Source: Gemmatimonadota bacterium (GTDB lineage Bacteria > Latescibacterota > UBA2968 > UBA8231). From it: 40,940 bases of DNA. Under the pieces are notes generated by a model that had not been told where the DNA came from, searched no databases, and worked only from the letters and a program-made list of their open reading frames with translations. Shown piece by piece: positions 11,856-29,624 of the stretch; positions within the stretch are counted from its first letter, which is position 1; every line of letters starts with the position of its first letter. The DNA lies in contig JABHDC010000160.1 of assembly GCA_018673255.1 (NCBI GenBank), positions 1-40,940 of the forward strand, in the 5' to 3' direction. A program made the translations under genes and the position numbers.

Positions 11856-12009
11856 GGATTCAGATTGCCTCTGGTGTCGGATCGATAGGAATGCGGCGAT
11901 GAAGTATAGACTCTACGCCGGGTTCCCACTCAGCAATTCGGGGTGTCGCTGTCGCGTATCGATGGGGAGATCGCTGGCCATGTGGCCCCTTCGCTAAGCG
12001 ATCCGGCCG

Positions 12010-12633
12010 CTATCTGAGAAAGTGTGCCATGCTGAGGGCGAACTGCCACCCACCCAGATCGTAGGTGAGACCATCCACCGTCGGCTGCAGTGCCCCTCGA
12101 CGCAGCCAGTGCAGTTCAACTCCCCATCGCGGCACAGGCTCGTAGGTGGCGCCCAGGGCCAGACGCCAGCCCCAGTCGTTGGCCGTGAGCGTGCGATTGG
12201 TGGTGCCCCCTGAAGTCCCACCCCCGAAGGTCCCATGCTGGCGCAGGAAGAGCAGATCCACACCGAATGTGGCGTGAAGGATCGTCTTGAAGGGATCCGC
12301 ACTCAGCCCCAGGCCAACACCGACATCGTGGAGATCCAGGTCGATGTGGGTGAGATCACTCTCCCCTCCGAAATAGTCATAACTCGCCTCGAGGGTGGCG
12401 CAGCAGAAAGGCAGTCGGAGGCCGAGATGTGGTTGGGCAACAGCACGTCGTTCGATGCGTTCGAAATACAACCCGGTCTGTCCGGCCGTCTGCGCCCGCC
12501 CCCTGGGCAAGCCACTCAGATCCGGCTCCCAGCGCTGAAAGCCGGCAGTCAGAATCGACTCGGCCCACAGAGATCCGGTGGATCCCGCAACAAACATCAG
12601 CAGAAGAATCAGCCCCAGCCGGCAGTGGCTCAT
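12010..12633 (-). CDS. Secreted protein, predicted outer-membrane beta-barrel; function unknown
   Basis: A 207-residue protein. Signal peptide at residues 1-24 (hydrophobic LGLILLLMFVAGSTG then SLWA-E). The mature part is built of amphipathic strands rich in Gly, Tyr, Trp and Leu (ATLEASYDYFGG, DVGVGLGLSADPF, WGWRLALGATYEPVPRWGVELHWLRRG) and ends with WQFALSMAHFLR, compatible with an eight-stranded barrel of the OmpW/outer-membrane beta-barrel type. It is 16 bp after the metallo-beta-lactamase-fold gene, so the two are probably cotranscribed. No family name could be given. Confidence 0.75.
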   Translation of the reverse strand: MSHCRLGLILLLMFVAGSTGSLWAESILTAGFQRWEPDLSGLPRGRAQTAGQTGLYFERIERRAVAQPHLGLRLPFCCATLEASYDYFGGESDLTHIDLDLHDVGVGLGLSADPFKTILHATFGVDLLFLRQHGTFGGGTSGGTTNRTLTANDWGWRLALGATYEPVPRWGVELHWLRRGALQPTVDGLTYDLGGWQFALSMAHFLR

Positions 12634-12649
12634 GTCAGGATCTCAGCAT

Positions 12650-14764: not shown

Positions 14765-14809
14765 GCCTCGCACATCCAGGCCAGCGATGCTGCTCCGGGT
14801 GTGCGAGGC
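14765..14809 (+). terminator. Long inverted repeat after the sugar isomerase gene
   Basis: Thirteen-base arms (14765-14777 GCCTCGCACATCC and 14797-14809 GGGTGTGCGAGGC) pair with one wobble around a 19-base loop, starting 12 bp after the stop codon. There is no T-run afterwards, so this is at best an imperfect or factor-dependent terminator. The arms contain TCGCACA and TGTGCGA, the same half-site as the sigma-54 operators elsewhere in this window, but in the wrong spacing. Confidence 0.4.
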
Positions 14810-15433: not shown

Positions 15434-15985
15434 TCAGACAGGTTGGCTCTGCCGCAACTGCCTGATCCGTGACTGGACCATCATGGCATTCAGGGCTGTG
15501 AACAGGATACCGATCATGAAGACACCCACAAACAGAATGACAAACCATGAGGGGTGCCTACCTGGGAAGCGCTTGAACATCCCCAGGCCGACCACCATCA
15601 TGGCCGCGAGGGACGGACTGGACGTCGCAAAGCTCAGCAGCAGTCGCTGATACTTCTGGACCTTCGATTCCGTGTCGGAAAAGAACTCGCTCGACTCACC
15701 CGCACAGTCCTCCTTCCGCCAGTATTGCCAGCCGGCCAGCGTGCCGAGATGTTCCCACCCGGCGTCCCGAATGAACTGGAAGTAGTCATCCGTCCCCTTC
15801 TTGTTGGCGAAGTCGAGTCGATAGGCGTAGGACCGCGGAGCCCCCTTGGCAAACCTGTAGCTAGCAAAGCCGCCCAGTTCGGTCAGATGCAGCCCCTGCT
15901 TCGACATGTCCGCCAGCCAGGATTCCTGGTTCTCGTCCTGCCAGGACCAGAACCACTTACGCTTGCGCACCACGTCCCCGTTCAT
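15434..15985 (-). CDS. DUF2812 membrane protein paired with PadR regulator
   Basis: A 183-residue protein with the DUF2812 domain at residues 5-100: WFWSWQDENQESWLADMSKQGLHL, then FAKGAPRSYAYRLDF and the tyrosine- and tryptophan-rich AGWEHLGTLAGWQYWRK. Two transmembrane segments follow (about 122-140 and 145-168). Such proteins are usually encoded right after a PadR-type regulator and are thought to act with it in membrane or envelope stress responses; the mechanism is unknown. Here its ATG overlaps the padR stop as ATGA, so the pair is translationally coupled and shares the strong promoter at 16379-16407. Confidence 0.9.
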   Translation of the reverse strand: MNGDVVRKRKWFWSWQDENQESWLADMSKQGLHLTELGGFASYRFAKGAPRSYAYRLDFANKKGTDDYFQFIRDAGWEHLGTLAGWQYWRKEDCAGESSEFFSDTESKVQKYQRLLLSFATSSPSLAAMMVVGLGMFKRFPGRHPSWFVILFVGVFMIGILFTALNAMMVQSRIRQLRQSQPV

Positions 15986-16323
15986 GTTGATCTCTCCGTC
16001 TCGAGATTCTGAAGCACTACCTTCCCGTTTCTGGACATGATCTCCAGCCTCTTGATCTGTTCGGCCAGCACTCCCTTGCCCCTTTCTGTGAGCCCGTAGG
16101 GCTTGCGCCGTCCCTCCTGCTTCAGGAGTCGGATCAATCCCTCCTTCTGCAGGTTCGTGAAGGCGCCATAGAGCGTACCGGCTCCGATGCTCACAGAGCC
16201 TTCACTGATCGTATCGACTTTCTGCATCACCGCATACCCATGGAGTGGTTCCACCAAGGCCAACAGTATGTAGTAGGTCGCTTCGGTCAGGGGCAGGTAC
16301 TTCGCGGTATCCAGTTCAGTCAT
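15982..16323 (-). CDS. PadR-family transcriptional regulator
   Basis: A 113-residue winged-helix repressor. The start is the ATG at 16323 with an AAGGGA ribosome box; the longer open frame upstream would read through the promoter. Residues 9-75 carry the PadR fold: LTEATYYILLALVEPLHGYAV, then SIGAGTLYGAFTNLQKEGLI and EGRRKPYGLTERGKGVL, followed by a C-terminal dimerisation helix with EIMSRNGKVVL. Members without a large C-terminal domain (subfamily 2) often repress their own operon. The promoter directly upstream carries two AT-rich palindromes placed in and just after the core elements, fitting autorepression. The ligand is unknown. Confidence 0.93.
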   Translation of the reverse strand: MTELDTAKYLPLTEATYYILLALVEPLHGYAVMQKVDTISEGSVSIGAGTLYGAFTNLQKEGLIRLLKQEGRRKPYGLTERGKGVLAEQIKRLEIMSRNGKVVLQNLETERST

Positions 16324-16362
16324 GGTGTCCCTTGGCAATGACACTCGATCTTCATTTCCTGT

Positions 16363-16399
16363 TATATCGTCTTCCGATATACTACTCGCCGATATATCG
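16363..16399. promoter_or_regulatory. PadR operator: two ATATCG palindromes
   Basis: TATATCG-N5-CGATATA (16363-16381) covers the -10 box and the start-site side; the perfect palindrome CGATATATCG (16390-16399) fills the spacer between -35 and -10. The ten bases TATATCGTCT recur at 16363 and 16393, exactly 30 bp apart, close to three helical turns. The placement would block polymerase, fitting a PadR autorepressor. Confidence 0.7.
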
Positions 16400-16407
16400 T
16401 CTGTCAA
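16379..16407 (-). promoter_or_regulatory. Strong sigma-70 promoter of padR-DUF2812
   Basis: On the minus strand a perfect TTGACA (16407-16402) is followed after exactly 17 bp by TAGTAT (16384-16379, 4 of 6 to TATAAT). The expected start site is near 16372, leaving about 49 bases of leader before the ATG at 16323. This is the best sigma-70 match found in the window. Confidence 0.8.
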
Positions 16408-16677
16408 TGTATTTTGTGTCCTTCCTGATTGCGCGGCAGGACCCCGGCGGCCAATCGGGTGGCCCTTTGACCAGTCGCCGAGTAGAGCAGGGCTCTTCGC
16501 CGTCACCCCTATGCGTCGTGATGCGACAGGCGGCACCTGTCGATGTGGGTGAACAGCGGCACGGAACGGCATTGTGTCAGGATGTCACGATCGGTCCCTC
16601 GGAGTGCTTGAGAGGGAATGTGCGGAATCAACCGGCGGAGAAGTGTCCCATGCCACGCCGGGATCTGAACTCGGCCG

Positions 16678-22815: not shown

Positions 22816-22831
22816 TGCAAGCCCCGTACCA
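22816..22831 (-). promoter_or_regulatory. Sigma-54 (-24/-12) promoter of the PD40 lipoprotein gene
   Basis: The minus strand reads TGGTACG-N4-TTGCA, one change from the TGGCACG-N4-TTGCA consensus, with GG-N10-GC intact. The start site is predicted at 22805, giving a 64-base leader before the ATG at 22740. Confidence 0.8.
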
Positions 22832-22850
22832 TGGCGAAAGAGGATCGTTG

Positions 22851-22863
22851 TATCTAGCTGATT
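22851..22863 (-). promoter_or_regulatory. Possible IHF-type bending site
   Basis: The minus strand reads AATCAGCTAGATA, one mismatch from WATCARNNNNTTR, inside an AT-rich patch between the sigma-54 promoter and its operators, about 50 bp upstream of the predicted start. This is where IHF normally bends DNA at such promoters. Short degenerate motif, so uncertain. Confidence 0.35.
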
Positions 22864-22920
22864 TATATGTATTTGGAACCGATTGTAGACACTGTATCCG
22901 TCGATGGGATCTGGTGTCAG

Positions 22921-22936
22921 TGTGCGAGGCTGCACA
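22921..22936. promoter_or_regulatory. Activator operator C (TGTGCG-N4-TGCACA)
   Basis: Eleven of twelve positions match TGTGCG-N4-CGCACA; the wider palindrome GTGTGC-N6-GCACAC is perfect. Centred about 123 bp upstream of the predicted lipoprotein start site, a usual distance for sigma-54 enhancer sites. Confidence 0.7.
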
Positions 22937-22954
22937 CGCTTGACGATGGCGACG

Positions 22955-22970
22955 TGAGCGGGTTCGCACA
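22955..22970. promoter_or_regulatory. Activator operator D1 (TGAGCG-N4-CGCACA)
   Basis: Eleven of twelve positions match the operator. Centred near -157 relative to the predicted lipoprotein start. It lies just past the response regulator stop codon and, together with D2, also forms a 14-bp hairpin. Confidence 0.55.
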
Positions 22971-22972
22971 GG

Positions 22973-22988
22973 TGTGCGAACCCGCTCC
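22973..22988. promoter_or_regulatory. Activator operator D2 (TGTGCG-N4-CGCTCC)
   Basis: Ten of twelve positions match the operator; centre 18 bp from D1, near -175. D1 and D2 are mirror images of one another, so the pair can be read either as two operators or as one everted hairpin with a 14-bp stem and 4-base loop (22956-22987). The hairpin could also act as a terminator for the kinase-regulator mRNA, but no T-run follows. Confidence 0.45.
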
Positions 22989-22990
22989 GG

Positions 22991-24466
22991 TCAGTCGGTC
23001 GGATCCGTGTCGCCGAGATCGTACTGGGCCATCCGTCGACGCAAGGTGAAACGGGTGATCCCGAGCAGCTTGGCCGCCTGTACCTGATTCCCATCCGCCC
23101 GGCGCAATGCTTCAACAACAGCGGCACGCTCGAGGCCGGACAGATCAAGAGACGCTGCCCTGGCCAGATCGAATGACCCCTCTGCCGAGTTGCCAGCTTC
23201 CCGTTCGCTGGCATCCTGCCCTGTGGATCCCGATGCACCGACCTCCTCGCCCTCCTCATCCCCTGTTGCCTGGAAATCGAGATCCTGTGGCTGAATCAGA
23301 TCAGCAGTGCAGACGATGACCGCGCGTTCCATCATGTTGCGCAGTTCCCGGATGTTTCCGGGGAAGGCATACTCGCGCAACAAACCTTCGGCTGTATGGG
23401 AGAGGCCTTGGACACTGCGGCGCGTATCGACGGCAGAGATGGCCAGGAAGTGCTTCGCCAGGAGCAACACATCTTCGCGTCGTCGGCGCAGGGGCGGCAC
23501 GGCAATGGTGTACGTGTTGAGGCGATAGAGCAGATCTTCACGGAAGTCTCCCGCCCGGACCGCCGCTTTCAGATCACGATTCGTCGCGGAGACAAATCGA
23601 ACATCGACGGGCAGTTCCTCATCGGCACCCAGCCGCCGGACGCAGCGCTCTTCCAGCACCCGCAGAAGCCGCGTCTGCATGGCCAGATCCATGTCACCGA
23701 TCTCATCGAGGAAGAGCGTGCCACCACTGGCGAGTTCGAACTGTCCCTTGCGTGCCTTGTGCGCGTCCGTGAAGGCACCCTTCTCGTGACCGAAGAGTTC
23801 ACTCTCGATCAAGTTCGGCGCAATCGCCGAGCAGTTCACGGCAATGAAGGGCCCCTGATGCCTGGCACTGGACTGATGGACCGCCCGCGCCACCAGTTCC
23901 TTGCCGGTCCCGGTCTCGCCCGTGATGAGGACCGTCGTCGTGTCGGTAGCACTCACCTGCTCGATCTGGGTCTTCACGGCCGCGATCGCGGCGCTGTGGC
24001 CGACGATGCCATCCAAGCCATATCGCTGGTCCGCCATAGCATCGAGGCGCTCAACATGGGCCCCGAGACGTTCATTCTCTCGGCGCAATTCGCGGAACTT
24101 GCGCATGCGTTGCAGCGATGCATCCAGGTCACGCAGTCGAACCGGCTTCCCAAAGAAGTCGAAGGCCCCCGCCCGCAAGGCCTCGACGGCACTGTCCATG
24201 TCACCGTAGGCGGTGATCATGATGACATCGGTTGCGGGCGACACGGTACGCACCTGGTTCAGGACCTCCACGCCATCCAGGCCCGGCATGCGCAGATCGG
24301 TGATGATCGCATCGATGGCGGTCTCGCCGGCCAGCCGGATCGCCGTCGCCCCATCCTCGGCTTCGCGTACATCGTGGCCCCGCGCGCTCAAGTGATCGCC
24401 GATGGTACGACGGACCGCCGGTTCGTCATCGACGACGATGATCTTCATGCTGATCGGTGTCGTCAT
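22991..24466 (-). CDS. NtrC-family sigma-54-dependent response regulator
   Basis: A 491-residue enhancer-binding activator. Receiver domain at 8-120 with phospho-acceptor D57 (IITDLRMPG), acidic pair in VVDDEP and Lys107 (FFGKPV). AAA+ domain at about 150-390 with Walker A GETGTGKE (183-190), sigma-54 contact loop GAFTDA (230-235; the usual form is GAFTGA) and Walker B LFLDEIG. A variable acidic linker at about 405-440 is followed by a Fis-type helix-turn-helix (NQVQAAKLLGITRFTLRRRM) at the end. Its ATG overlaps the kinase stop as ATGA. It should bind the TGTGCG-N4-CGCACA sites before the kinase and lipoprotein genes and drive their sigma-54 promoters. Confidence 0.97.
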   Translation of the reverse strand: MTTPISMKIIVVDDEPAVRRTIGDHLSARGHDVREAEDGATAIRLAGETAIDAIITDLRMPGLDGVEVLNQVRTVSPATDVIMITAYGDMDSAVEALRAGAFDFFGKPVRLRDLDASLQRMRKFRELRRENERLGAHVERLDAMADQRYGLDGIVGHSAAIAAVKTQIEQVSATDTTTVLITGETGTGKELVARAVHQSSARHQGPFIAVNCSAIAPNLIESELFGHEKGAFTDAHKARKGQFELASGGTLFLDEIGDMDLAMQTRLLRVLEERCVRRLGADEELPVDVRFVSATNRDLKAAVRAGDFREDLLYRLNTYTIAVPPLRRRREDVLLLAKHFLAISAVDTRRSVQGLSHTAEGLLREYAFPGNIRELRNMMERAVIVCTADLIQPQDLDFQATGDEEGEEVGASGSTGQDASEREAGNSAEGSFDLARAASLDLSGLERAAVVEALRRADGNQVQAAKLLGITRFTLRRRMAQYDLGDTDPTD

Positions 24467-27400
24467 GCCGACACCGCCGGCAGCATCACCTGGAATACCG
24501 TGCCCTGGCCCGGACGACTCTCGCAGGATATGTCACCGCCGTGCCGACGCACGATAGCGTAAGAAATCGACATCCCCAGACCCGTGCCCTGATCGGCTTC
24601 CTTCGTCGTGAAGAAGGGTTCGAAGATTCTCGCCTGCACTTCGGGTGTCATGCCGATCCCGCTGTCCTCGATCTCGAGTCGCACGCGAGACGTGCTCGTG
24701 TCCCATGAAGTGAGCACTCTCAACCATTTCTCCCATGGCGCGGACCGGTCATCTGGCGCCACGGCATCGACAGCGTCACGACCATTGCTCAATAGATTCA
24801 CGATAACCTGTTGAAGTTGGTGAGAATGTCCAAGGAATTCGGGCAGACCCTCCTGCAGGTCCAGTTCCAGACGGATATTGTGTTCGGCCAACTGGGCCCG
24901 CATCAATCGAAGTGCATCTTCCACCACCTCGTTGAGTGACGTCGGCACCCCCGGCTCGTGTGCCGTGTCACGCGAGAACACCCGCAGATCCCGCACCGTG
25001 TGCGCCATGCGTTCGGACAGTTCCATGACATCGCGCAGTTTCGATCGGAGGACCTCTTCGGGTAGCTCAATCTGATCAGCCAGTCGCAGGTAGAGGTCCT
25101 CTGCAACACCGGAGATGACCGTGAGTGGCTGGTTCAGTTCGTGCGCCACGGCTGCCGACATCTGCCCCATGGAGACCAGCCGCGCCGACTGCACGAGTTG
25201 TGCCTCCAGTTCACGGGCCTCCAGTGCCGCACCGATCTGCGCCGCCGTCTCATCCACGAGGGCCCGTTCCTGTGTCTCGCTCAAGGACAGGCCACTGATC
25301 AGGCAGAGCGTACCGCGGTCCGCACCACGCCACTCAAGAGACCGTTCATACACGGCCGGTGACGCTGGATCCGACCCGAAATTCCAGATCCGCCCTTCGA
25401 TGGCAATCTCGACGCGAGCACCGACAGCGCTGAGGGCATCCAGAAGCGTCTCCCCGCCACCCCGTACCACGTCGTCTACCGTTCGTGCCGTCGCCACCTT
25501 CGACCTCAGTCGATAGAGGTATCGCAGCTGCGTGAGTTCCTCATCCAACCGCTCGCGCGCCGAGGCCTCCGCAGCCAGCGACGTGCGCGTGGAGCGGAGG
25601 CGGACTTCCCGCCGGAAAACGCGCACCGTCTGCATCAGCAGGAGGCCAAGCAGTGCCACCAGGGGCACCAGAAAACGGGCATCCTTCCACCAGGGCCTCG
25701 ACACGACGAAGGCGAAGCCCGGGGGATCATCGTCGACATTCCCATCTCGATCCATGGCGCGTACCACGAGCTGGTGATCACCGGCGCTCACCCCTGCCAG
25801 GGCCACACTCGTTAGTTGCGACCAGGCGGACCACTCGGCCTCATCGAGTTGCCACTGAAACCACAGATCCTCTGTCATCGTGTCCTGCCAGCGATCCAGT
25901 CCATGCCACGCGAGATAGACGTCGCCATCCGGCGCGATCTGAGATGACACAGGGGCCAGCTCCGTTTCTGGCGGATCGACTCCGACCTGCGGACGAAAAT
26001 GCACGACCCGGCCGTCCGACGTGCTGATCCACAACGTGCCATCTTCCATCAGATGCAGCGTCGGATCGATCCACTCAAAGAACAGGCCCTCTTCGCGCCC
26101 GTAGCGCTGCCAGGTCCCGTCGAAGTATCGCGTCAGACCTTCGGAGCTGACGAACCAGGTGGACCCATCCCCCCCATCTGCGACATGGCTGATCCCATTC
26201 CCCTGCAGGCCATCCGCTTCCGTATAGAAATGCCAGTCCTTGCCATCGAACCGACCGGCGCCACCCCCCCGATTGGAGATGTAGGTAAACCAGAGGCCGT
26301 CACGATTCGGCACAAAGTCCTGAGGCTTCCCCCAGGTGACTGGAATGTCCGTCTTGTTCCACCACGTCATGCTGCCATCGTCGGCGATGATGGGCCGCGC
26401 AAAGCCGAGTTTTGTACCGAACCACAGACTCCCAGATGGCCACTCTGTGGCCCAGCTGATGTAGCTTGAGGCGAGCCCATCGGCTTTGGTGTAGGTGTGC
26501 CACCGCTGCCCATCCCAGCGATGGAGTCCGGCGCCCTCATCGCTCCTGTACTTCGTCCCCGTCCAGATCTGCCCCGTTGAATCCTCGTAGAGAATCATCG
26601 CCAGGTCCCCCTTCAGCCCGTCGGCTGGTGTGAACAGACGGACCTGGGAGCCATCCCAACGGCTCACGGCGGCGTGGCCTTCATGCTCCCCTGCCATCCA
26701 GATGGCCCCATCGCTAGCGACGAGGATCCGTGCACGCATGGAGGGGAAATCCTGCGGATACCGTGGCCACGTGGCATCGACGACACCATCTGCCAACGTC
26801 AGGATGAACCAGCCCGTTCCATCCCATCTGGCCACAGCCGCCTGGCTGTGATGATCGCCGAAGAACCACAATGATCCATCCGCCGTCTGCTGCATGCCAA
26901 AGATGGGGCCCGTCAGGAACCCGTCGGCCGCGCCATGGGCGATCCAGTGATCACCCGAGTGGCGCACGGCCTGCTCTGTGGTATGGAACCAGACATCCGT
27001 CTCGAAGCCGGGGAATCCCCCATAGAGTTCTGATGGATGGCGATACGTCGTCGATCGCCCCACGGGATCATACCGCAGGACGCGAGAGCGGCCCTCCCGA
27101 CCGTACCACACCGACCCGTCACGAGCCTGCAGACCCTTCGTGAAACCTGGGAGCTGCGGCGTATCGCTGGCATCGTAGGTGACGAGGGAGTCGCCGTCGA
27201 CGCGACAGACCTGCAGGGCCCCACCCGTCCAGATCTGGCCGTCTTCCGTACGCCAGACGTCTTGCATTCGGTACGGCGGCCCTGGGGGCGGGTAATTCGT
27301 CCATGTCTCGCCATCCCACCGGCTCAACCCGCCCTCTTGGCACGTGGTCCATACATGTCCCTCGGGTGTCGCCTCGAGATCTGTGCAGCCAATGCGCACA

Positions 27401-28053
27401 CCACCGTTGATCGTCTCTGCATGGCGTGACCACTCCCCGTCGGCGTACTGCAGAACCCCGGCGCCCGTCGCCGCCCAGATCGTACCGTCGGGCGTGGCCG
27501 TGATATCCTTTACGGTGAGGTTTGGGAAGGAAGATGGGAGCTCGACGGGGTGCCAGCGCGTTCCGTCAAAACGACACAGCCCACCCGGTCGGGAGGCGTC
27601 CCCGCTGAATCCCGCCCACAACTGACCGTCCGGTGCTTCGTACAGGACCTCGCCGTTGGCGATGTAGTCACTGATCAGACCATCGCTTGTCGTGTAGGTG
27701 GTCCAACTGATCCCATCAAAGCGGCTGATCCCTGTCGAGCGGGTGGCGAACCAAATCGAACCGTCCCGCGTCTCGATCACATCCTGCAGATCATCGTCGG
27801 CAAGTCCGTCCTCGGTGCCATACGAGAGCCACTCGATCCCATCGAACCGGTGCGCACCACGCGTGGTGGCAAACCAGATCCTGCCCTGTGAGTCTTCGTG
27901 CAGGCCTTTGAACGAGCCACCACGCGGCAGGCTGAATTCCCGCCAACGCCATGACTCCAACAGCGGATCGTCAGAAGTGACGTTGAGCGTATCGAACCCC
28001 AGAGCGGGGAGGCCCAACGCCAGAATGAAGAATGGGATGATGGATTTGGTCAT
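24463..28053 (-). CDS. Histidine kinase with periplasmic Reg_prop propeller and Y_Y_Y sensor
   Basis: About 1196 residues. The start is the ATG at 28053, giving signal peptide MTKSIIPFFILALGLPALGF; an in-frame ATG at 28083 falls inside the sigma-54 promoter. Residues about 25-720 hold more than a dozen Reg_prop repeats (pattern DGSIWFATRSTGISRFDG, then W..Y and DGL), forming periplasmic propellers. A Y_Y_Y domain (LWFQWQLDEAEWSAW and LVVRAMDRDGN) precedes a transmembrane helix (FLVPLVALLGLLLMQTVRVF). The cytoplasmic part has a linker with a possible GAF-like region, a HisKA box with His near 971 (AAVAHELNQPL) and an ATPase domain (NLLSNGRDAV, EDSGIGM, GTGLGMSIS). No receiver or AraC domain is fused, unlike Bacteroidetes hybrid sensors. 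Phosphotransfer to the coupled regulator is expected. Confidence 0.96.
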   Translation of the reverse strand: MTKSIIPFFILALGLPALGFDTLNVTSDDPLLESWRWREFSLPRGGSFKGLHEDSQGRIWFATTRGAHRFDGIEWLSYGTEDGLADDDLQDVIETRDGSIWFATRSTGISRFDGISWTTYTTSDGLISDYIANGEVLYEAPDGQLWAGFSGDASRPGGLCRFDGTRWHPVELPSSFPNLTVKDITATPDGTIWAATGAGVLQYADGEWSRHAETINGGVRIGCTDLEATPEGHVWTTCQEGGLSRWDGETWTNYPPPGPPYRMQDVWRTEDGQIWTGGALQVCRVDGDSLVTYDASDTPQLPGFTKGLQARDGSVWYGREGRSRVLRYDPVGRSTTYRHPSELYGGFPGFETDVWFHTTEQAVRHSGDHWIAHGAADGFLTGPIFGMQQTADGSLWFFGDHHSQAAVARWDGTGWFILTLADGVVDATWPRYPQDFPSMRARILVASDGAIWMAGEHEGHAAVSRWDGSQVRLFTPADGLKGDLAMILYEDSTGQIWTGTKYRSDEGAGLHRWDGQRWHTYTKADGLASSYISWATEWPSGSLWFGTKLGFARPIIADDGSMTWWNKTDIPVTWGKPQDFVPNRDGLWFTYISNRGGGAGRFDGKDWHFYTEADGLQGNGISHVADGGDGSTWFVSSEGLTRYFDGTWQRYGREEGLFFEWIDPTLHLMEDGTLWISTSDGRVVHFRPQVGVDPPETELAPVSSQIAPDGDVYLAWHGLDRWQDTMTEDLWFQWQLDEAEWSAWSQLTSVALAGVSAGDHQLVVRAMDRDGNVDDDPPGFAFVVSRPWWKDARFLVPLVALLGLLLMQTVRVFRREVRLRSTRTSLAAEASARERLDEELTQLRYLYRLRSKVATARTVDDVVRGGGETLLDALSAVGARVEIAIEGRIWNFGSDPASPAVYERSLEWRGADRGTLCLISGLSLSETQERALVDETAAQIGAALEARELEAQLVQSARLVSMGQMSAAVAHELNQPLTVISGVAEDLYLRLADQIELPEEVLRSKLRDVMELSERMAHTVRDLRVFSRDTAHEPGVPTSLNEVVEDALRLMRAQLAEHNIRLELDLQEGLPEFLGHSHQLQQVIVNLLSNGRDAVDAVAPDDRSAPWEKWLRVLTSWDTSTSRVRLEIEDSGIGMTPEVQARIFEPFFTTKEADQGTGLGMSISYAIVRRHGGDISCESRPGQGTVFQVMLPAVSA

Positions 28054-28066
28054 AGGGAGCCAATCG

Positions 28067-28082
28067 TGCAACGGGCGTGCCA
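28067..28082 (-). promoter_or_regulatory. Consensus sigma-54 promoter of the kinase-regulator operon
   Basis: The minus strand reads TGGCACG-CCCG-TTGCA, a full match to the consensus. The predicted start, 12 bases after the -12 C at 28068, is near 28056, only three bases before the ATG at 28053; the transcript would be nearly leaderless, and no Shine-Dalgarno box is seen. Confidence 0.88.
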
Positions 28083-28156
28083 TGCTGCCCGTGGTCGTGG
28101 AGATTGGCCCTCACCTCGAGAGGCAGGCCCCAGAATGGGTCTTCAAGTCCGGTGCC

Positions 28157-28172
28157 TGTGCGAGCACGCACA
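28157..28172. promoter_or_regulatory. Activator operator A (TGTGCG-N4-CGCACA)
   Basis: Perfect palindrome; with one more pair each side (CTGTGCG/CGCACAG) the arms are seven bases. Centred about 108 bp upstream of the predicted kinase start site. Confidence 0.78.
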
Positions 28173-28180
28173 GCAACCGG

Positions 28181-28196
28181 TGTGCGATCTCGCACT
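28181..28196. promoter_or_regulatory. Activator operator B (TGTGCG-N4-CGCACT)
   Basis: Eleven of twelve positions match operator A; the inner palindrome GTGCGA-TC-TCGCAC is perfect. Its centre is 24 bp beyond A, near -132. Adjacent dimer sites are usual for activators that must oligomerise. The rest of the 28054-28394 gap shows no gene. Confidence 0.75.
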
Positions 28197-28394: not shown

Positions 28395-29624
28395 TCAGTC
28401 GACCAATGCCGACCAAACCTTTCGCACACCCGCGATCGTTTCGTCGACATCCTCGTCGATGTAGCGTTCGTCTACCGGCAGACGGACAACCGACTCCTGC
28501 AGGGCATCGACATTCGGACAGGAGTCCGGGTCGTACTCGACGTCACGCCAGAAGGCCGGCACTTCCTCGGTGAGAGGATAGTATCGTTTGGTGCGCACGA
28601 GATCCGTGCGCAGGATGTTGTTCGCCGGTGACATGCCCGTGCTGATTGTCAGACCTTCTGCCCGCAGGGCCTCGACCAGGTCATCTCGGGTGGTCTTCGT
28701 ACCCGTGTAGCGCGCCGCGATCGGCCACCAGGACGGGTAGCCGCCATCGACGATGCGCGGCAGACTCAAACCTTCCAGATCGCCGAGTTCCTCGTAGTAG
28801 CGATTGGCGATCTCACGACGACGCGCCACCAGTGCGGGCAGCTTGGTCAGTTGTGCCCGACCCACCGCAGCATGTAGCCCGTTTGCACGGTAGTTCAGGG
28901 CAAAGAAGGGGATCGGCTGGCCACCACGACCGACGGAACCATCGCGGATGCAGGTCTTGTCGCGAAACAGGCTTGCGATTCTACCCGTCTCATCGTCATC
29001 GGTGCCGACGAAACCCCCGTCGCCGGTCGTCATCTGCTTCGACTCGTTCATACTGAAACCGGAAGCGTCACCAATCGATCCGACCAGGCGTTCCTTGTAT
29101 ATGCCGCCATGGGCCTGGGCGCAGTCCTCCAGAATCTTCACACCCGTCTCGGCGCCAAGGGCCATGAAGGCATCCATATCACAGGGCATGCCGGACATAT
29201 GCACAGTGATGATGCACTTGGTGCGATTCGTGATCTTCGACCGCACCGACTCGGGATCGATGAGACGCGTTTCCAGATCGATGTCGGCGAAGATCGGCAC
29301 AGCATGCAGCGCCAGGATCGCAGCGACGGTGCCGATATCCGTCATCGGCGTCGTGATCACCTCGTCACCTTCGGCCACACCAAGCGCACACAGGGCGGTG
29401 TGCAGAGCGGCAGTTCCCGAGGTCACGGTGACCATGTGTTTCACACCGAAGAATTCGGCCAGTTCTGCCTCAAAGTCCTCCACAATTCCGGCGGGGCCCA
29501 TGAGCTTGCCGCTCTCCAGCGCTTTGCGCAGCTCGACGATCTCCTCTTCCCCGTAGCGATTGGTGAGGGTGTAGGGGCTCTCTTTGGCCGGTGTCCCGCC
29601 GTGCAAGGCGAGCTGATCGGTCAT
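28395..29624 (-). CDS. DegT/DnrJ/EryC1/StrS-family sugar aminotransferase
   Basis: A 409-residue fold-type I PLP enzyme of the family that aminates keto-sugars (or in a few cases dehydrates them), normally using glutamate. Conserved features: VTSGTAALHTALCALGV near residue 67, DEVITTPMTDIGT, DCAQAHGG with the PLP-stacking and binding residues, and the Schiff-base lysine in SMNESKQMTTGDGGF. The final domain carries RANGLHAAVGRAQL, usual for the family. A GGAGATGA box precedes the ATG. It is 81 bp after the sulfatase gene and in the same direction. Which sugar it handles is not evident; with the sulfatase it may act in amino-sugar metabolism. Confidence 0.93.
   Translation of the reverse strand: MTDQLALHGGTPAKESPYTLTNRYGEEEIVELRKALESGKLMGPAGIVEDFEAELAEFFGVKHMVTVTSGTAALHTALCALGVAEGDEVITTPMTDIGTVAAILALHAVPIFADIDLETRLIDPESVRSKITNRTKCIITVHMSGMPCDMDAFMALGAETGVKILEDCAQAHGGIYKERLVGSIGDASGFSMNESKQMTTGDGGFVGTDDDETGRIASLFRDKTCIRDGSVGRGGQPIPFFALNYRANGLHAAVGRAQLTKLPALVARRREIANRYYEELGDLEGLSLPRIVDGGYPSWWPIAARYTGTKTTRDDLVEALRAEGLTISTGMSPANNILRTDLVRTKRYYPLTEEVPAFWRDVEYDPDSCPNVDALQESVVRLPVDERYIDEDVDETIAGVRKVWSALVD

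Follow-up and report, generated by a model that had tools for sequence, protein, structure and literature searches.

The contig JABHDC010000160.1 of a Gemmatimonadota bacterium (Latescibacterota in the GTDB lineage), of which positions 1 to 40,940 were analyzed (the window), carries three genes that probably constitute a split two-component system: a sensor kinase with a propeller head would signal to a separate NtrC-type response regulator that activates, by means of sigma-54, its own operon and the gene of a TolB-like lipoprotein. In the order of transcription, a DegT-type gene is followed by a 341-bp gap, the kinase gene, the regulator gene (its first 4 bp are shared with the end of the kinase gene), a gap of 250 bp and the PD40 lipoprotein gene (Table 1). 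Kinase, regulator and lipoprotein genes are all on the minus strand and are served by two separate gaps, with no divergent order around one shared intergenic region. Each gap contains a predicted sigma-54 promoter core and dyads of the same motif upstream of it.

The cores were searched in the whole window as TGGCACG-N4-TTGCW with GG and GC fixed, the expectation being calculated from a Markov model. There is one perfect core (0.0099 expected), the only one in the window, and one with a single mismatch, outside GG/GC (0.26 expected at no more than one mismatch). Both are on the correct strand, the first upstream of the kinase gene and the second upstream of the lipoprotein gene, as had been claimed in the original prediction, which was made by inspection of this DNA. 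By their GG/GC spacing and near-consensus sequence they are predicted sigma-54-dependent promoters. As a positive control, the zraP/zraS gap of E. coli K-12 was scanned for the same cores, giving exactly one core per strand, with 1 and 2 mismatches. The 13 dyad rows listed include, between the two cores, paired GAGTAAA/TTTACTC dyads at 76-116 bp from the predicted starts, which we take to be the ZraR sites. In the table of a review the ZraR enhancer is entered as not known (PMC4987338).

The second element common to both gaps is the palindrome TGTGCG-N4-CGCACA. Allowing one mismatch at most, four sites occur in the window against 0.26 expected: the three separate dyads of Table 1 and 22955-22970. 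All four are non-coding, in a window that is about 85% coding according to a liberal gene list, and all are within the gaps upstream of the kinase and lipoprotein genes. With up to three mismatches the excess disappears (28 found, 32 expected), and hence the signal is confined to the strong sites. Because the motif had originally been picked by eye, a test was carried out in which the 6-base half-site and the gap between half-sites (0-10) were left variable. The two gaps have four common sites of one motif, whereas none of 1000 dinucleotide shuffles exceeded two. Among real sequences, the kinase/lipoprotein pair is the only one of the 66 pairs of 12 gaps to reach four (two other pairs reached three, with a different motif), and of 967 random pairs of the same lengths, 1000 having been drawn and near pairs skipped, none scored above two. 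The dyads common to the kinase and lipoprotein gaps are therefore beyond chance.

The original prediction had placed the palindromes about 105-175 bp upstream; the distances computed from the predicted start sites are -108 and -132 for the kinase, -123 for the lipoprotein, and -157 and -175 for two further matches discussed below. Sigma-54 enhancers are usually found 80-150 bp upstream (PMC4987338), and the first three centres fall within that range, which bears out the claim that the dyads are spaced as in known enhancers. The outer layout of the dyad is TGT-N10-ACA, the layout of NifA sites, for which a distance of 100 bp or more upstream is usual (PMC2820453). The NtrC-type response regulator GlrR binds an 18-bp dyad, TGTC-N10-GACA (PMC4987338, PMC8745638), similar in style to TGTGCG-N4-CGCACA although the spacing is not equal.

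Table 1. Features of the predicted circuit (positions in the window; centres relative to the predicted RNA start; aa, amino acids)
Feature	Position	Strand	Remarks
DegT-type gene	28395-29624	minus	first in transcription order, upstream of the kinase gap
Operator-like palindrome TGTGCGATCTCGCACT	28181..28196	.	1 mismatch; centre ~-132 (kinase), 24 bp from first
Operator-like palindrome TGTGCGAGCACGCACA	28157..28172	.	0 mismatches; centre ~-108 (kinase)
Predicted -24/-12 core TGGCACGCCCGTTGCA, kinase-regulator operon	28067..28082	minus	0 mismatches; predicted RNA start ~28056
Sensor kinase, 1196 aa	24463..28053	minus	Pfam Reg_prop, HisKA, HATPase_c
NtrC-type response regulator, 491 aa	22991..24466	minus	Pfam Response_reg, Sigma54_activat, AAA_lid_14, HTH_8
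Two weaker palindrome matches, arms of a 14-bp hairpin at the regulator stop codon	22955..22988	.	1 and 2 mismatches; inverted repeat I1
Operator-like palindrome TGTGCGAGGCTGCACA	22921..22936	.	1 mismatch; centre ~-123 (lipoprotein)
Predicted -24/-12 core TGGTACGGGGCTTGCA, lipoprotein gene	22816..22831	minus	one mismatch; predicted start ~22805, leader ~65 nt
PD40 (TolB-like) propeller protein, lipoprotein-like signal, 317 aa	21787..22740	minus	4 PD40 stretches (Pfam)

The regulator is composed of a receiver (Response_reg, E 1.1e-28), an AAA+ domain (Sigma54_activat, E 2.5e-70) and a Fis-type helix-turn-helix (HTH_8, E 2.2e-12). The GAFTxA loop attributed to it beforehand is present as GAFTDA, a motif found in 110 of 120 proteins among the matches listed, query included. 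D57, K107 and the core Walker residues are invariant in a 10-member alignment. Having a receiver with a phosphorylatable Asp, a GAFTGA-type AAA+ loop and a Fis-type helix-turn-helix, the protein fits by sequence an NtrC-type response regulator, that is, a bacterial enhancer-binding protein. Its recognition helix, GITRFTLRRRMA, is identical in P0001, P0122, P0123 and P0124.

The kinase begins with a signal sequence, followed by a double beta-propeller (residues ~36-690), an immunoglobulin-like domain at the Y_Y_Y position (~696-784), one transmembrane helix (~792-818), an alpha/beta domain (~859-920), HisKA and HATPase. The alpha/beta domain appears GAF-like, by our own reading of the model and with no database match. 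In HisKA the motif HELNQPL contains H971. The AlphaFold2 model (mean predicted local distance difference test score, pLDDT, 80.7; predicted TM-score 0.62) has about 60 strands at residues 37-686, a number that in the model is enough for two propellers. Of the Reg_prop/Y_Y_Y head that had been predicted, the first half stands, Reg_prop being matched with E 4.6e-17 and the double propeller being seen in the model; the Pfam Y_Y_Y model gave no match to the kinase up to E 5, and the model has strands at 696-784, where that domain is expected. The top Foldseek match of the kinase is the periplasmic domain of the heparin/heparan-sulphate sensor BT4663 (E 2.4e-34), with a target-normalised TM-score of 0.42 and a root mean square deviation of 11.8, so that the placement of the domains is uncertain. 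FixL chimeras and ZraS come further down, starting at rank 16, as matches of the cytoplasmic part, and the likeness of the kinase core to FixL and ZraS is seen both in sequence and in fold. Neither a receiver nor a DNA-binding (AraC) domain was detected in the kinase by Pfam scans, in keeping with the split arrangement, kinase and adjacent NtrC-type regulator, that had been proposed.

The lipoprotein signal of the PD40 protein has Gly-Cys at residues 19-20. The residue usual at position -3 of a lipobox is Leu, Val or Ile, and the Gly of the lipobox-like ALGIGC departs from this pattern. The AlphaFold2 model (pLDDT 86.1) has TolB as its best Foldseek match (TMq 0.76), and the best near-full-length homologue among the matches listed is P0258, with 47% identity.

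We propose the following model. The propeller kinase would sense a ligand or an envelope signal outside the membrane and would phosphorylate the receiver of its neighbour, the NtrC-type regulator, which would then bind the TGTGCG-N4-CGCACA dyads 108-132 bp upstream of the sigma-54 promoter of its own operon and the dyad ~123 bp upstream of that of the lipoprotein, build an AAA+ ring and open both promoters. The outcome would be positive autoregulation together with the induction of a TolB-like lipoprotein, presumably on the surface, which may act as a binding protein or as a feedback partner.

Several observations weigh against this model. The gene rpoN is not in the window, and to call the circuit "self-contained", as had been done, was an overstatement. 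The spacing of 24 bp between the kinase dyads is a non-integer number of helical turns. With the start counted 12 nt from the -12 C, the predicted kinase RNA begins ~3 nt ahead of the ATG at 28053, and no Shine-Dalgarno match of at least 4 nt precedes the kinase start (one is present in 15 of the 27 genes inspected and at 29% of random positions); should both calls be correct, the mRNA would be nearly leaderless, a possible but unproven situation. In the lipoprotein gap there is a weak sigma-70-like site (9/12, 22920-22891), of a kind that occurs near chance level (6 found, 3.5 expected over 16 kb). None of the 120 lipoprotein homologues listed comes from a contig as long as those of the kinase relatives (17056 or 13280 bases); from this negative no inference was drawn, since the lipoprotein of the window is itself absent from those 120. 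Finally, a second strong 3'-end hairpin (14765-14809, -33.6 kcal/mol), shortly after an AP_endonuc_2 gene, has CGCACA/TGTGCG ends, no T run, and no sigma-54 core with up to two mismatches nearby, so that the half-site also occurs away from the two promoters.

This last hairpin bears on the number of operators at the lipoprotein gene. The match at 22955-22970 pairs with that at 22973-22988 (the latter has two mismatches) to form a single perfect stem of 14 bp, starting at the stop codon of the regulator gene (-33.5 kcal/mol, z -6.75; 0 of 200 shuffles as stable). No T run follows the stem, and it is not among the 8 terminator-like sites of the terminator scan. The element could be a 3'-end hairpin, an operator, or both. 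The second hairpin with the same arms favours the first option, and so does the ranking of 15 gene ends by folding, in which the ends of the regulator gene, of 14765-14809 and of a DUF2812 gene are the best (-37.3, -33.6 and -30.7; random mean -17.6). Two or three palindrome copies per gene had been counted originally. The two at the kinase hold; three at the lipoprotein gene are doubtful because two of them are hairpin arms. Only 22921-22936 is therefore a clean dyad of the lipoprotein promoter, against two for the kinase promoter. Hence, it is conceivable that only the kinase-regulator operon is sigma-54-dependent and autoregulated and that the lipoprotein gene is no real target, its promoter being a chance near-match (a core with one mismatch, of which 0.26 are expected in the window) and its palindromes the region of the regulator 3' hairpin. 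The sigma-70-like site in the same gap and the lack of an orthologue with the related contigs among the homologues listed point in the same direction. However, 22921-22936 is outside the hairpin and has a single mismatch, and dyads common to both gaps are unlikely by chance; we consider this explanation unlikely.

The dyad could also be the site of another regulator, for example of the CRP/FNR type, with the NtrC-type protein acting elsewhere. TGTGC-N6-GCACA resembles TGTGA-N6-TCACA, the dyad fits what we take to be the 5-6-5 layout of CRP-type sites, and binding of the NtrC-type regulator to the dyads is something that we infer. On the other hand, the sites are 108-132 bp upstream of -24/-12 cores and beside the gene of an NtrC-type regulator, while CRP sites that activate directly are usually nearer the promoter, and this makes the alternative quite improbable. 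A third possibility is that TGTGCGA/TCGCACA belong to hairpins that recur, either at 3' ends or as a small dispersed palindrome, and do not function as operators. The same arms of the 22951-22992 and 14765-14809 hairpins and the 14 copies of TGTGCGA in the window (7 non-coding) might suggest this. It is very improbable, since this heptamer is not clearly over-represented (9.0 expected; 10 of 100 shuffles reach the count) and the kinase dyads, upstream of a gene, have only a moderate folding advantage over shuffles (z -2.09; 7 of 200 fold as well).

The kinase-regulator pair of the proposed system has relatives. Kinases P0003 and P0004 are 73% identical to that of the window over the full length, and the regulator homologue P0122 is 78% identical. 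For P0004 and for P0122 the only contig recorded is 17056 bases long, and thus the two genes are very probably adjacent in a second organism, the one relative in which the pair would recur. The protein P0123 has a C-terminal half letter-identical to P0001 and a divergent N-terminal half (10-member alignment), which suggests chimeric assembly or recombination, and for this reason it was not counted as independent evidence. Few of the 120 regulator homologues listed carry organism names; among these are two from Candidatus Latescibacteria/Latescibacterota and one from Gemmatimonadetes, which points to a host probably belonging there. Four loci (L001-L004, 24% identity) found by a contig scan with two peptide patterns were rejected as orthologues, since the regulator matches, sought among open reading frames of at least 80 aa at E <=1e-5, were only inside the propeller proteins themselves. 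The matches listed for P0002 in 288 genomes of the phylum of G001 (via L002) concern almost only the generic kinase domain. In the scan of viral contigs no kinase relative was found; these contigs contain 14 distant regulators, with 32-47% identity.

In the original prediction no description of this exact circuit was known. In the literature on propeller sensors with sigma-54/NtrC or kinases, and on Latescibacter with sigma-54, no title or abstract start among those listed describes the circuit or the one-piece arrangement discussed below, most subscription journals being outside the coverage. To this extent, for a circuit with a propeller sensor, the statement holds; the view that nothing similar has been described would be too strong, the wiring of ZraPSR being the same and Proteus qseEGF following the same logic. 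Neither ZraS nor GlrKR/QseEGF is known to have a propeller, and the output of the Bacteroidetes hybrid systems is AraC. By comparison with these systems, the wiring would be one already known, to which the sensor head and the output are new.

ZraPSR of E. coli and Salmonella resembles the system described here in its overlapping genes for a kinase and an NtrC-type regulator (the zraS/zraR overlap is 4 bp, the same as here), in the control of both the kinase-regulator operon and an envelope protein gene by sigma-54 promoters, and in its autoregulation, the last two being predictions in the present case (PMC4987338, PMC8249747). ZraR drives the divergent sigma-54 promoters of zraSR and zraP (PMC4987338), and it bound a single main target, the zraSR/zraP spacer, indicating autoregulation (PMC8249747). 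In contrast with the PD40/TolB-like propeller protein, encoded on the minus strand like the other genes, zraP is divergent and codes for a zinc-dependent periplasmic chaperone, and the dyads of its gap are GAGTAAA/TTTACTC. In Proteus mirabilis, glmY-qseE-qseG-qseF form one operon whose promoter needs QseF (PMC8745638); qseG of E. coli is an outer membrane lipoprotein gene. GlrKR/QseEGF thus shares with our system an NtrC-type response regulator, a dyad upstream of a -24/-12 core (in E. coli glmY, TGTC-N10-GACA ~125 bp upstream) and a lipoprotein gene in the cluster. It differs in the position of qseG, between the kinase and regulator genes, and in the 18-bp dyad; the review lists glmY and glmZ, which specify small RNAs, as the GlrR targets (PMC4987338).

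Regarding the sensor, propeller/YYY proteins are typical of Bacteroidetes hybrid systems (PMC3243724). Those of the BT4663 type, the top fold match, also have a double-propeller periplasmic sensor, but unite all two-component domains in one protein, whereas the kinase described here has no receiver and no AraC domain and is accompanied by a separate sigma-54 regulator. ReeS of Clostridium perfringens is likewise a histidine kinase of the non-hybrid type, and its putative sensor domains are of the propeller kind; unlike the kinase of the window, it is an orphan, with no cognate regulator assigned (PMC3762733). Propeller input and sigma-54 output are combined in a different manner in at least five of the 120 kinase homologues listed (P0044, P0070, P0072, P0096, P0110), one-piece proteins in which Reg_prop propellers and Y_Y_Y are joined to a sigma-54 AAA+ domain (PF00158), as was confirmed by rescanning P0044, P0072 and P0110. 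P0044, P0070, P0072 and P0110 combine Reg_prop, Y_Y_Y, Sigma54_activat and HTH_8 (in P0072 HTH_8 is below its cut-off) and lack both kinase and receiver domains, while P0096 stops within the AAA+ domain. P0072 and P0110 have no signal-peptide or transmembrane peak (highest 1.12 and 1.16), as if their propeller were cytoplasmic, and P0070 has a borderline peak of 1.42 at 744, although its start may be missing.

It is possible, although we would not count on it, that in a bacterial lineage outside Bacteroidetes the double propeller of the glycan sensors was joined to control by sigma-54 enhancers, in two forms: split kinase/NtrC pairs such as the present one, and activators in which propeller, AAA+ and HTH form a single chain. 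Such a lineage would possess an equivalent of the Bacteroidetes hybrid glycan sensors that is ATP-gated and all-or-none. In the present system it would be combined with positive autoregulation from a nearly leaderless mRNA, and the TolB-like surface lipoprotein would be a binding or feedback partner. If true, a well-known class of extracellular glycan sensors would be linked to a type of promoter that is silent without its activator, in a host group that seems to be known mainly from metagenomes. The domain lists of the homologues suggest that propeller heads have been exchanged between AraC, SpoIIE-phosphatase and sigma-54 outputs. Moreover, TGTGCG-N4-CGCACA together with a -24/-12 core offers a concrete operator for mapping the regulon in genomes that carry the regulator.

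The heparinase II/III, the sulfatases and an SGSH_C domain nearby, together with the fold match to a heparin sensor, are suggestive, and only that, with regard to the ligand. Membership of the glycan enzymes of the window in a dyad regulon is unsupported, there being no dyad or core with one mismatch or less in the gaps ahead of the heparinase and sulfatase genes.

As for the rest of the window, the gene content of 2360-40928 includes 3 sulfatases, heparinase II/III, PhyH, two xylose-isomerase-like enzymes, one MR_MLE enzyme, a Thr-aldolase-like enzyme and DUF4886, and resembles that of an environmental bacterium degrading glycans and sugar acids. A DUF2812 gene follows the gene of a PadR-family regulator with a 4-bp overlap (15434-16572), a common pairing. 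Three gaps (1-803, 1779-2359 and 11856-12649), which are long and may contain unlisted genes, have in common a different palindrome, CGGATC-N10-GATCCG, with one mismatch at most, and the commonest non-coding 7-mer of the window is CAGATCC, with 10 copies.

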